Assembly (NCBI GenBank): GCA_023473395.1
Contig: JAMCYO010000032.1
Location: 1 to 38,624 of the forward strand
Length of the DNA stretch: 38,624 nt
Source: Candidatus Martarchaeota archaeon
GTDB lineage: Archaea; Micrarchaeota; Micrarchaeia; Micrarchaeales; Micrarchaeaceae
Direction: 5' to 3'
The translations under genes and the position numbers were made by a program. Within the stretch, counting starts at the first letter, position 1. Every line of letters begins with the position of its first letter. The notes under the pieces are model-generated. The model saw only the letters and a list, made by a program, of their open reading frames with translations, did no database searches and was not told the origin of the DNA. Of the stretch, positions 35,528 to 38,624 are shown one piece after another.

Positions 35528-36724
35528 ATGAAAGATGAATACAAGATAAAGAAGGAGCTCAAAAGGCTCGCCTCGATAAAAGGCTCGGGGACTGAGCTAA
35601 TAAGCGTATACATACCGCCGGGCTTCCCGATAAGCGATGAAGTAGCGAAGCTCAGGGACGAGCATGGCCAAGCTTCTAACATAAAGTCCAAGACCACAAG
35701 GCTGAACGTCCAAGGCGCACTCGAAAAGATTATGCAGTACCTTAAGCTTTACAAGATGCCGCCGGAGAAGGGATTGGCGATATTCTGCGGGAATATAAGC
35801 AACGAGCAGTCCAAGCCCGACATAGAGCTTTTCTCAATGGAGCCCCCTGAGCCGATAAAAGTCAACATATACAGGTGCGATTCCACGTTCCTGCTTGAGC
35901 CGATACAGCGCATGATGGAAACGACCGACAAATATGCGGTTGTGATAATGGACGGAAGCGACGCCACAGTGGGCGTGCTTTCAGGGTCGCAGTTCATTGT
36001 GGACAAGAAGCTCAGGTCCTTCGCCCACCAAAAGGTGCACAAGGGAGGCCAGTCTGCAGCAAGGTATGACAGGGCACGAGAGGAGAGCATAGACGATTAT
36101 TACAAGGCAGTCGCCGAGGCCATAAACGACTTATTCATAAAGCACGAGTTCAAGCTGAAGGGGCTTATCGTTGGAGGCCCTGGCCCGGCAAAGGAGGACT
36201 TCGTAAAGTCAAAGAACCTGAACTACCAGATAAAGGTCGTAGGGGTTTTCAACACCGGCTATACGGACGAAAATGCAGGATTCAGGGAGCTGCTTGAGCA
36301 GGCCAAGGACGTTCTTTCGGAGCAGCAGGCGATACAGGAACAGAAGATAATGGGAAGGTTCCTTAGCGAGATATCGCGAAACGGGCTTGCGACTAATGGC
36401 TACGAAAAGGTCAAAAAGGCGCTGCAGTCCAACAATGTGGCCATGCTGATAGTGAGCGAGGACCTTGAACTCTACTCCGTGCATTACAAGTGCAACACCT
36501 GTGGCACAGAGTTCGACGCGCTCGAACAGGGTAACCAACGGCAGATAAAGCACAGCGACGGAGGCAACCTTTCCATAGTGGAGGAACACGACGCAGTGGA
36601 GGAACTCGTGGACATGGCCGACAAGCTCGGCGTCCAGATATCTTTCATATCATCCGAGAGCCAATATGGCAAGGAGCTGCTTTTGGGGTTTGGAGGGATT
36701 GCGGCGCTCCTAAGATATAGATGA
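35528..36724 (+). CDS. prf1: Peptide chain release factor aRF1
   Basis: A 398-residue archaeal/eukaryotic-type class I release factor. Domain 1 carries NIKS in ASNIKSKTTR for stop-codon reading. Domain 2 carries the catalytic GGQ in KVHKGGQSAARYDRAREE for peptidyl-tRNA hydrolysis. Domain 3 ends with a zinc-knuckle-like CNTCGTEF and GFGGIAALLRYR. It recognises all three stop codons and works with aEF1A-type GTPase and ABCE1 in termination and recycling. The length is close to the usual archaeal 405-420. This gene is strong evidence that the source is archaeal. Confidence 0.95.
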   Translation: MKDEYKIKKELKRLASIKGSGTELISVYIPPGFPISDEVAKLRDEHGQASNIKSKTTRLNVQGALEKIMQYLKLYKMPPEKGLAIFCGNISNEQSKPDIELFSMEPPEPIKVNIYRCDSTFLLEPIQRMMETTDKYAVVIMDGSDATVGVLSGSQFIVDKKLRSFAHQKVHKGGQSAARYDRAREESIDDYYKAVAEAINDLFIKHEFKLKGLIVGGPGPAKEDFVKSKNLNYQIKVVGVFNTGYTDENAGFRELLEQAKDVLSEQQAIQEQKIMGRFLSEISRNGLATNGYEKVKKALQSNNVAMLIVSEDLELYSVHYKCNTCGTEFDALEQGNQRQIKHSDGGNLSIVEEHDAVEELVDMADKLGVQISFISSESQYGKELLLGFGGIAALLRYR

Positions 36725-36798: not shown

Positions 36799-36939
36799 TC
36801 AGTTTTTGTTGTCGGCCCAGACTATGCTGTAGACATTCTCCCGTTCCTTGACTATCGCTACCGGCCTTGCGTTCTTTGAATCCTTTTCCAGAAACTTGTC
36901 AAGTTTCCTGTATTTCATGTTTTTTACAAAGTTTAGCAT
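36799..36939 (-). CDS. Small protein (46 residues), last gene of small-protein operon
   Basis: A 46-codon frame with a clear Shine-Dalgarno: AGGTG lies five bases before the ATG at 36939. The protein is basic and mostly helical at the start (MLNFVKNMKYRKLDKFLEKD), then strand-like with NVYSIVWADNKN at the end. No family is recognised. It lies 18 bases after the stop of the 45-residue gene and has the codon style of neighbouring real genes (AGG for Arg, ATA for Ile), which supports translation. The function is unknown. Confidence 0.6.
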   Translation of the reverse strand: MLNFVKNMKYRKLDKFLEKDSKNARPVAIVKERENVYSIVWADNKN

Positions 36940-36957
36940 ATTTACACCTGTTGGCAA

Positions 36958-37095
36958 TCATGCCTTCATGGACATGTATTTCCTGAATATCTTCATCTGC
37001 AGCCTTTCCATATCCTCGCGTATTTCCGGGTCCTCTTCTATTATTTTCATGACCGAACCCTTTATCCCTGATCCTAATATGCTTGGCATCTTCAT
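36958..37095 (-). CDS. Small protein (45 residues), coupled to upstream RAM-like gene
   Basis: A 45-codon frame whose ATG (37093-37095) overlaps the TGA of the upstream gene as ATGA, a standard translational-coupling arrangement. The product is helical and charged (KGSVMKIIEEDPEIREDMER, then LQMKIFRKYMSMKA), probably a single helical hairpin. No family is recognised. The overlap and the common codon style argue that it is real. Confidence 0.6.
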   Translation of the reverse strand: MKMPSILGSGIKGSVMKIIEEDPEIREDMERLQMKIFRKYMSMKA

Positions 37096-37394
37096 TTTAA
37101 GACCCTCTGTATCATTGCGGCGCTGACAAATTTTCCATACGAAGGGCCGACTATCTTAGGTATTTTGCTCTCTACCTTGCTGTAGGAATCATCTGAGAAT
37201 ATCGCAGTCACGTTGTATCCCAACGTCCCGGACTTTATATTGACTTCCTTTATGCATTCCATCTTCATAAGCTTTGAGGCGAGATCCTCTGCGCTTGTGT
37301 TATCTTCAGGTTTTATGAAGAAGAAATTGTGCGAAGTATTTCCATACCTCCTTGAATCACGTACACTATCCTTAGGGGTTTTATTTCCATTCAT
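37092..37394 (-). CDS. Stand-alone RAM/AsnC-C-terminal-like small protein, putative
   Basis: A 100-residue protein. After a polar N-terminal tail of about 20 residues, the pattern reads beta-alpha-beta-beta-alpha-beta: NFFFIKP, SAEDLASKLMKMECI, KEVNIKSG, GYNVTAIFSDD, YSKVESKIPKIVG, GKFVSAAMIQRVL. This is the ferredoxin-like order of the AsnC/Lrp ligand-binding (RAM) domain, here without a DNA-binding half; the assignment is from secondary-structure reading, not from a motif. AGGTG lies six bases before the ATG at 37394; a GTG at 37403 sits in that motif. The divergent Lrp-like regulator makes a regulatory link plausible. Confidence 0.65.
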   Translation of the reverse strand: MNGNKTPKDSVRDSRRYGNTSHNFFFIKPEDNTSAEDLASKLMKMECIKEVNIKSGTLGYNVTAIFSDDSYSKVESKIPKIVGPSYGKFVSAAMIQRVLK

Positions 37395-37606
37395 TATATG
37401 CACCTGTAGACTTCAAGAACATGAAGTGCCCTCATTGGCACATACTTATTGAAAAAAGAAGAAAAATTAGAAAAAAGGGTTAGGAATGGGGAATTATTAT
37501 TTTTATTTGAATTTCTAGTTAGGGTGGGAAGCCAGAGGGTATGGTTGGTGGGGTAAAACTCGGGATAAGAAAAATCATAAGTTTTGCTTTCGGATTTTTC
37601 TATCAT
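37394..37606 (-). CDS. Possible 70-residue small protein heading the operon
   Basis: A 70-codon frame starting at ATG 37606, with AGGGGGT six bases upstream and a TATA-like TATTTATACT (minus strand, 37645-37654) about 40 bases upstream, so a transcript should start near 37623. Its TAA overlaps the next ATG (TAATG). The protein is polar and Phe/Asn/Ser-rich (NSNKNNNSPFLTLFSNFSSF), with no recognised domain. Composition is unlike its neighbours, so this stretch might instead be an untranslated leader. Signals favour translation; sequence content does not. Confidence 0.4.
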   Translation of the reverse strand: MIEKSESKTYDFSYPEFYPTNHTLWLPTLTRNSNKNNNSPFLTLFSNFSSFFNKYVPMRALHVLEVYRCI

Positions 37607-37825
37607 TTTATTACCCCCTGGCTCGATAAATACTATGTACTTAAAAGTATAAATACCATTCGGGATATTTTAGACTATTTAAAATATATAATACTAAAAA
37701 CTTTAAGCAAAAATTCATAAATTTGTAATTTTAGGATTATTTATATCAATAAAAACCAAAAATAGTAAGAAATAAATATATTTAAGGATGTTTTATATAC
37801 TGTGATTAAAAACAAAAAGGCCAAT
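37607..37825. promoter_or_regulatory. AT-rich divergent promoter, small-protein operon / Lrp-like gene
   Basis: 219 very AT-rich bases. The minus-strand TATA-like TATTTATACT (37645-37654) faces the small-protein operon. On the plus strand AAATAAATATATTTAA (about 37769-37784) and TTTATATAC (37792-37800) face the Lrp-like gene. The first would suit leaderless translation from GTG 37802, the second from ATG 37826. The long A/T runs in between could hold binding sites for the adjacent regulator. Confidence 0.5.
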
Positions 37826-38624
37826 ATGCCTGCCAGGGTGGCCGAGCTTGTCGAAAGGCTAAGGAGGGCCTCGAAGCACAACATAGAGGTAAAAAGGATC
37901 GGCAACGGGTATTATGTATACGAATACATGTTCAAGAACGACAATGGCAGGCAGAAGAAGCTCTCGTTCTACCTCGGGAAATCCGACAGCGAAGGAAACT
38001 TCAGTGAGGGCAGGCACAGGTTCCTCAAGACGCGCTCGAGGAGCCTTGACGAATACCTTGAATCGTCGGAGAGGGGCGAAAGGCCCGAAAGCGTGAACGA
38101 GCTCATATATCCAGACGACATAGACAAGGAGATTCTGAAGAAAATAAGCATGGACTCGAAGGCGTCTGCGTATTCGATAAGCAAGGCACTCGGCATAAGC
38201 CCAAACACCGTTGCATACAGGATAAAGAAGCTCGAGAGGCTTTACGGGATAAAGTACACAATAGAGCTAAGGCCAGGCACATTCGGCTTCGAGAGGTATT
38301 TCATAACCATAAGGTTCATACGTGGCAAACCCTCGCAGGATGAGCTGCAAAAGCTTTTTGCCGCAGAGCCCAGGATACAGTTCGTTGCCGCGCTTAGCGG
38401 GTATTACAGCATGCTGATATACCTGCTCGCCGAAAACAACGTTACGCTTGAAAACATAATCTACAAGCTCAGGAGCAGCAGCGTCTTCGGCTCGTGCACC
38501 TCCATATGGAACATAGGCTATACTTCGGAATCCGAGACGTGGTACGTGCCATTTAGGGATGACTTCTTCGAATTGCTCAGGGAGAAGGTCTGGCACAGGA
38601 CCAGGGAAAACCCAAGGAGGAACG
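37826..38624 (+). CDS. Lrp/AsnC-family regulator with extra N-terminal module, 3' truncated by window
   Basis: 266 residues are visible and the frame is still open at the window end. Residues 1-75 hold a small domain with NGYYVYEYMFKNDNGRQKKL and FYLGKSD, similar in style to the N-terminal module of some archaeal transposases and DNA-binding proteins. Residues about 95-150 are an AsnC-type helix-turn-helix (DDIDKEILKKISMDS, SAYSISKALGISPNTVAYRI). From residue 155 a RAM-like region follows (FERYFITIRFIRGKPSQDEL, VAALSGYYSMLIYLLAENNV). Lrp proteins bind DNA as oligomers and sense amino acids or similar ligands. ATG 37826 was chosen; an in-frame GTG at 37802 is possible. Confidence 0.75.
   Translation, partial: MPARVAELVERLRRASKHNIEVKRIGNGYYVYEYMFKNDNGRQKKLSFYLGKSDSEGNFSEGRHRFLKTRSRSLDEYLESSERGERPESVNELIYPDDIDKEILKKISMDSKASAYSISKALGISPNTVAYRIKKLERLYGIKYTIELRPGTFGFERYFITIRFIRGKPSQDELQKLFAAEPRIQFVAALSGYYSMLIYLLAENNVTLENIIYKLRSSSVFGSCTSIWNIGYTSESETWYVPFRDDFFELLREKVWHRTRENPRRN

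Follow-up and report, generated by a model that had tools for sequence, protein, structure and literature searches.

The window, a 38,624-nt stretch of DNA that constitutes contig C23 of its source genome, derives from a Micrarchaeum-type archaeon whose genome is in 41 contigs and 79.5% complete; the genus takes in Ca. Micrarchaeum and Ca. Mancarchaeum genomes. Close to the right-hand end of the window, the minus strand carries a TATA box (ATTTATAC, ~37647..37654) followed by frames of 70 codons (37394..37606), 100 codons (37092..37394), 45 codons (36958..37095) and 46 codons (36799..36939). All four lie where an earlier note on this DNA had placed them, as do the TAATG and ATGA joints and the 18-base gap, and SD-like sequences (GGGGG, AGGTG, GAGGG and AGGTG, respectively) are found ~5-7 nt before their starts. 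Divergent from these frames, on the plus strand, is a gene for an Lrp-like regulator, denoted REG (37802..38624), that is cut by the contig end. The earlier note had read the minus-strand frames as an operon of three to four small proteins. This was borne out for the 100-, 45- and 46-codon frames, denoted RAM, m1 and m2, which the sequence comparisons mark as true genes, far beyond chance, but not for the 70-codon frame, which is probably part of a structured 5´ leader rather than a protein gene.

The 100-aa protein had been likened to a RAM domain lacking the DNA-binding half, and the predicted fold agrees. The AlphaFold2 model (mean pLDDT 70.6) has the order beta-alpha-beta-beta-alpha-beta, and its best Foldseek match in the PDB was the stand-alone RAM protein DM1 (2e1a; E 1.4e-3, TM 0.70 on the target); Lrp proteins featured prominently in the matches that followed. 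Similarly, a profile of the RAM family, which comprises ~100 loci, matched DM1 and Lrp proteins best when compared with the PDB (E 0.0018-0.01). A Pfam search with RAM gave no match over the cut-off, and RAM and REG are weakly related to each other (profile comparison E 0.022, probability 2%). The dN/dS of RAM was 0.01-0.15 (NG86, close pairs). We also noted G-rich sequences ahead of cassette RAM genes across the order, with GGTGGG before 16/65 and GGGG before 18/65 as opposed to 0/129 and 1/129 for other long genes at the loci of the genus, though the counts at RAM are inflated by the choice of RAM starts according to the best SD.

The 45- and 46-codon frames, also counted as proteins in the earlier reading, evolve under strong purifying selection, with dN/dS in close pairs of 0.03-0.13 for m1 and 0.05-0.15 for m2 (NG86). 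The m1 protein (45 aa) is probably helical, carries a DPEIREQxERLQ motif, is kept in Micrarchaeum cassettes and has a 44% identical paralogue. For m2 (46 aa), which has a 48% identical paralogue and the motif RPV...Y/W..VWADE, the model shows a helix plus a beta-hairpin (mean pLDDT 73, pTM 0.32). Known relatives of m1 and m2 were not found in family searches, and 55 of the 57 matches to the m2 family are no more than 500 nt away from RAM, on the same strand. The m2 protein belongs to a new family met almost only beside RAM.

The divergent gene had been assigned to an Lrp/AsnC regulator with both an HTH and a RAM domain. Both are present, but the description was incomplete. The AsnC-type HTH was recognized by Pfam (PF13404, HTH_AsnC, 33.8 bits against a cut-off of 27), and the REG family profile matches the HTH and RAM of Lrp structures in the PDB (E 5.5e-15), while Pfam AsnC_trans_reg scored 15.1 bits, under its cut-off of 25. 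Only ~60% of REG is visible in the window, since the frames of its relatives extend to ~440-550 aa, typically ~460 aa. In these full-length relatives, a second HTH was detected (hhalign E 8.9e-6), giving the order N-terminal domain of ~100 aa, HTH, RAM, second HTH and then a region without an assigned family. The profiles thus identify REG as a tandem double-Lrp protein, not a single HTH-RAM module of ~150 aa. The gene for a paralogous REG, on contig C36 of the same genome, contains a 20-bp tandem duplication that shifts the frame (L002 2742-2790), which reflects either an assembly error or a pseudogene.

That paralogue belongs to a second cassette, found in a DNA search of the source genome itself, in which REG is again divergent and RAM, m1 and m2 are 44%, 44% and 48% identical to those of the window, in unchanged order. 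The expectation that the gene order would be kept in related genomes held for this cassette and genus-wide. Using a two-sequence RAM profile, we found the RAM family in 76/100 relatives, which include Ca. Micrarchaeum sp. A_DKE (G002; complete genome, 989,838 bp), and REG was present in 83/100. A divergent REG lies within 900 nt at 74/100 collected RAM loci; several of the other 26 end at contig ends. An extended RAM profile matched 126 of 301 genomes from across the phylum, and all but two of these belong to this order. TATA boxes equivalent to that of the window are also located upstream of the leaders in relatives. Within the genus there are two operon types, RAM-m1-m2 and m2'-RAM-third ORF, while outside it m1 and m2 are replaced or joined by zinc-finger-like mini-proteins, or by an m2-like protein in which helix and hairpin have changed places; in L091 and L093, for example, small ORFs 3´ of RAM resemble a reversed m2, with a hairpin and then a GLFSRILGIF-like helix.

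The surroundings of the cassettes were also informative. In several genomes the aRF1 gene adjoins the window-type cassette (window 35528-36724; L074 8570-9775), and the C36-type cassette adjoins the gene for ribosomal protein S13; because of these neighbours, we regard both copies as old, stable loci. RAM has expanded to 5-9 copies in single genomes (G053 L132-L134, G084, G088). No REG was found within the 3-kb loci of G053 (L132-L134), and there were 12 REG matches in G088. A viral, plasmid or defence origin was considered and set aside; PHROGs and PADLOC matches were weak, and searches of viral contigs, phages and plasmids gave no RAM match. In the open-access literature searched, we found no description of the cassette; most subscription papers fall outside that search.

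A reading of the 70-codon frame as a protein gene was rejected on its substitution pattern. In close pairs where the dS of RAM is 0.4-1.0, the dS of this frame is 0-0.17 with dN/dS of ~0.5-1.5; for L065-L068, for instance, the leader dS is 0.07 and the RAM dS is 0.88. The near-zero dS, together with these dN/dS values, indicates that the leader is conserved as nucleic acid. Comparison of the window with more distant orthologous leaders gave dN/dS of 0.34-0.41, values that can also be obtained from a conserved nucleotide element. Additionally, the frame has no counterpart protein in the C36 cassette and is missing or different in other lineages.

The leader instead is predicted to form a hairpin (37529..37624, minus strand) in which the G-rich arm GAGCCAGGGGGTA (37624-37612), which holds an SD, pairs with the C-rich arm TACCCTCTGGCTT (37541-37529) ~90 nt further on. 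The common order is a TATA box, an initiator-like CATAATA, a G-rich arm with SD and start codon, and a C-rich arm ~80-120 nt downstream. The folding z-score was -4.4 for the window and ranged from -1.8 to -4.5 among the leaders folded. Order-wide, a long-range stem at p<=0.05 was detected in 34/70 leaders (18 at the minimum p) compared with 7/187 upstream regions of other genes, leaving about half of the leaders with no significant stem. The arm sequences differ completely between lineages, with no sequence-conserved aptamer core, and Rfam gave no match over threshold for the leader. CCCACC is enriched in the leaders (35/70 versus 13.5 expected). Pairing of the C-rich motif with the RAM SD was examined and rejected, as the cognate duplexes were no better than shuffled or non-cognate ones (z +0.12 and +0.23).

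A comparison of REG with its operon revealed a modest distance correlation between REG and RAM: true pairings correlate with r 0.339 as against 0.264 for within-genome swaps (sd 0.021; 0/2000 permutations). Simple co-divergence of REG and RAM holds only in part, since some operons have changed their REG partner in the course of evolution, and the histories of REG and the operon are partly decoupled. For L070 and L076, REG is 82% but RAM only 42% identical, while for L077 and L079, which belong to one genome, RAM is 95% but REG only 26% identical. The block common to such loci extends from approximately the transcription start to the operon end, which means that the operon is exchanged together with its leader, as a single unit. 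Instances of copying or exchange between REG loci (L070/L076; L077/L079; L066/L067/L069) include shared blocks at L066 2078-2854, against L067 and L069, and at L077 7765-8563, against L079, with block ends that match the transcription unit.

On the other side of REG, we detected glycine-rich micro-ORFs, which the window does not show because REG is cut by the contig end. In Micrarchaeum, REG is followed downstream by an element of 75-110 bp whose copies are mostly 80-95% identical, although the REG genes next to them are far less similar. Read on the strand opposite to REG, this element contains TTTAAA, GGTGAT and a micro-ORF, for example MMGGAGGH (L070 6552-6578; G002:C1 ~648,551-648,577), MGGGGGQ or MKGGPNGGR. 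There are 22 copies of the element in seven genus genomes, mostly beside REG; a few others lie close to the end of a contig or next to what remains of REG or RAM. Micro-ORFs of the same kind are found in other genera, either alone or in arrays with as many as seven members, and most are preceded by an SD of their own. Arrays opposite REG (L204 377-600 (-), L095 5780-6122 (+), L094, L090, L069, L225 and L230) have 2-7 units, mostly 40-105 bp apart; there are seven micro-ORFs in a row in L095 and five at a pitch of ~45 bp in L204. In the 16-kb loci, 33/34 matches are located at the 3´ end of REG, on the strand opposite to it. When the unchanged rule was applied to an independent set of 40 further REG loci, micro-ORFs were detected at 13, with 20 antisense and 0 sense matches. 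In the 2.28 Mb of strand sequence scanned, to which the absence of arrays elsewhere refers, clusters of at least two were confined to the 3´ side of REG, apart from L197, where the element copy has no REG within its 3 kb. The 47 unique micro-ORFs have a mode of 7 codons and 61% glycine in frame 0; the two other frames have 1% and 4%. Since frame 0 was selected for glycine, it is these two frames, and which codons are used, that carry the information.

Starting from what was observed, namely the gene arrangement, purifying selection, a RAM-like fold, a conserved stem in the leader and micro-ORFs clustered at REG, we propose as our best reading, about as likely as not, that the locus is a self-contained, multi-copy autoregulatory cassette of the order holding Micrarchaeum, with RAM as the partner of REG. 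REG stands between two short-gene units, the RAM/m2/mini-protein operon 5´ of it, across the shared promoter region, and, in many loci, the convergent micro-ORFs at its 3´ end. REG would quite probably bind to the promoter region between itself and the operon and regulate both of them. RAM, which the earlier note suggested may join or titrate the regulator, could plausibly oligomerise with REG through the RAM modules of the latter and in this way feed back on it, by analogy with DM1, which can form a hetero-octamer with FL11 (PMC2995911). With comparable plausibility, the leader hairpin may restrain translation starting at the 5´ end of the operon transcript for as long as it stays closed. We suggest only tentatively that the micro-ORFs are translated and that the peptides, or their translation, might feed into REG. 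An improbable extension is a peptide signalling module, intracellular or cell-to-cell, in which the glycine-rich hexa- to decapeptides made by the micro-ORF arrays would be the cognate ligands of the REG RAM modules, variable residues would give paralogue specificity and the RAM/m2 operon would serve as output and feedback.

These elements have counterparts in known systems. The 100-aa protein, with its RAM fold and no HTH, is like archaeal stand-alone RAM proteins such as DM1 of Pyrococcus horikoshii and STS042; unlike in DM1/FL11, however, RAM here has a constant place in a divergent cassette, together with mini-proteins, a structured leader and a tandem-Lrp regulator that belongs to the cassette. 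REG resembles Lrp/AsnC (feast/famine) regulators in having an AsnC-type HTH followed by RAM and a divergent target gene, an organisation known for archaeal Lrp genes (PMC2995911), but differs in its size of ~460 aa, its second HTH half, its N-terminal domain and a target operon of only very small proteins. The micro-ORFs, at ~7 codons, are as short as mccA of microcin C, a 7-codon gene encoding MRTGNAN (PMC6495379), but they are glycine-rich and occur in arrays beside a regulator. Microcin C-like maturation was discarded as an explanation, as no MccB/ThiF-type adenylyltransferase scored over the cut-off in 8 genus genomes (controls positive, 12/14).

Other explanations for individual parts of the cassette need to be weighed. 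The leader arms might be DNA operators for REG or RAM rather than an RNA hairpin. The arms coincide in part with the place where transcription presumably starts and differ from cassette to cassette, and paralogue-specific sites would explain why their sequences differ; order-wide symmetric scoring also gave about equal numbers of GU and AC mismatches (29 versus 24), so that the wobble asymmetry seen in the aligned genus does not carry over as proof of RNA. Yet in the 12 aligned Micrarchaeum leaders, where 96.5% of cells pair, the wobble changes are all G-U compatible and none are A-C, and one change is two-sided (L072). Tested against shuffles of the 3´ letters, the pair count of these 12 leaders was not significant, because the pairs barely vary there. 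The folding z-scores, the SD and following start codon in the 5´ arm, and the fact that the homologous block of otherwise unrelated cassettes starts at approximately the transcription start and includes the arms also speak against operators. We consequently hold this explanation to be rather unlikely and favour, without taking it as proven, a stem that acts as RNA.

A similarly low likelihood is given to a function of RAM, m1 and m2 that is unrelated to REG, for example in a metabolite-binding or a ribosome-associated complex, with REG as a mere local repressor. The re-pairing of operon and REG types, the lack of known relatives for m1 and m2 and RAM loci without a nearby REG, such as those of G053, would fit such a function. 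Against it, the divergent REG is kept at nearly three quarters of the RAM loci, no enzyme or transporter was found consistently attached to the collected RAM loci, and the modelled RAM-like fold points to an Lrp-type assembly. Still more doubtful is the idea that the micro-ORFs are untranslated and that GG-rich DNA or RNA, for instance G-quadruplexes, was selected. Although 45 of the 66 distinct micro-ORFs hold four GG runs, 21 do not, the SD-to-ATG spacing is 5-6 nt in 54/66, third codon positions vary most (38/27/65 for the three positions) and serine codons of both the AGY and the TCN type are used.

The novelty lies in how the parts are assembled and in the leader and micro-ORFs, the two larger proteins being from known families. 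The cassette is found in most sampled genomes of the order, with several copies in some. Its mini-proteins are of the kind that gene callers tend to miss, and its leader hairpin keeps its form while its sequence is free. If translated, the micro-ORFs would rank with the smallest known genes, and their arrays would, to our knowledge, be the first of their kind. Ca. Micrarchaeum harzensis A_DKE is a cultured carrier with a complete genome, which makes these ideas directly testable. Such work could account for some of the many unknown genes of these tiny, host-dependent archaea.
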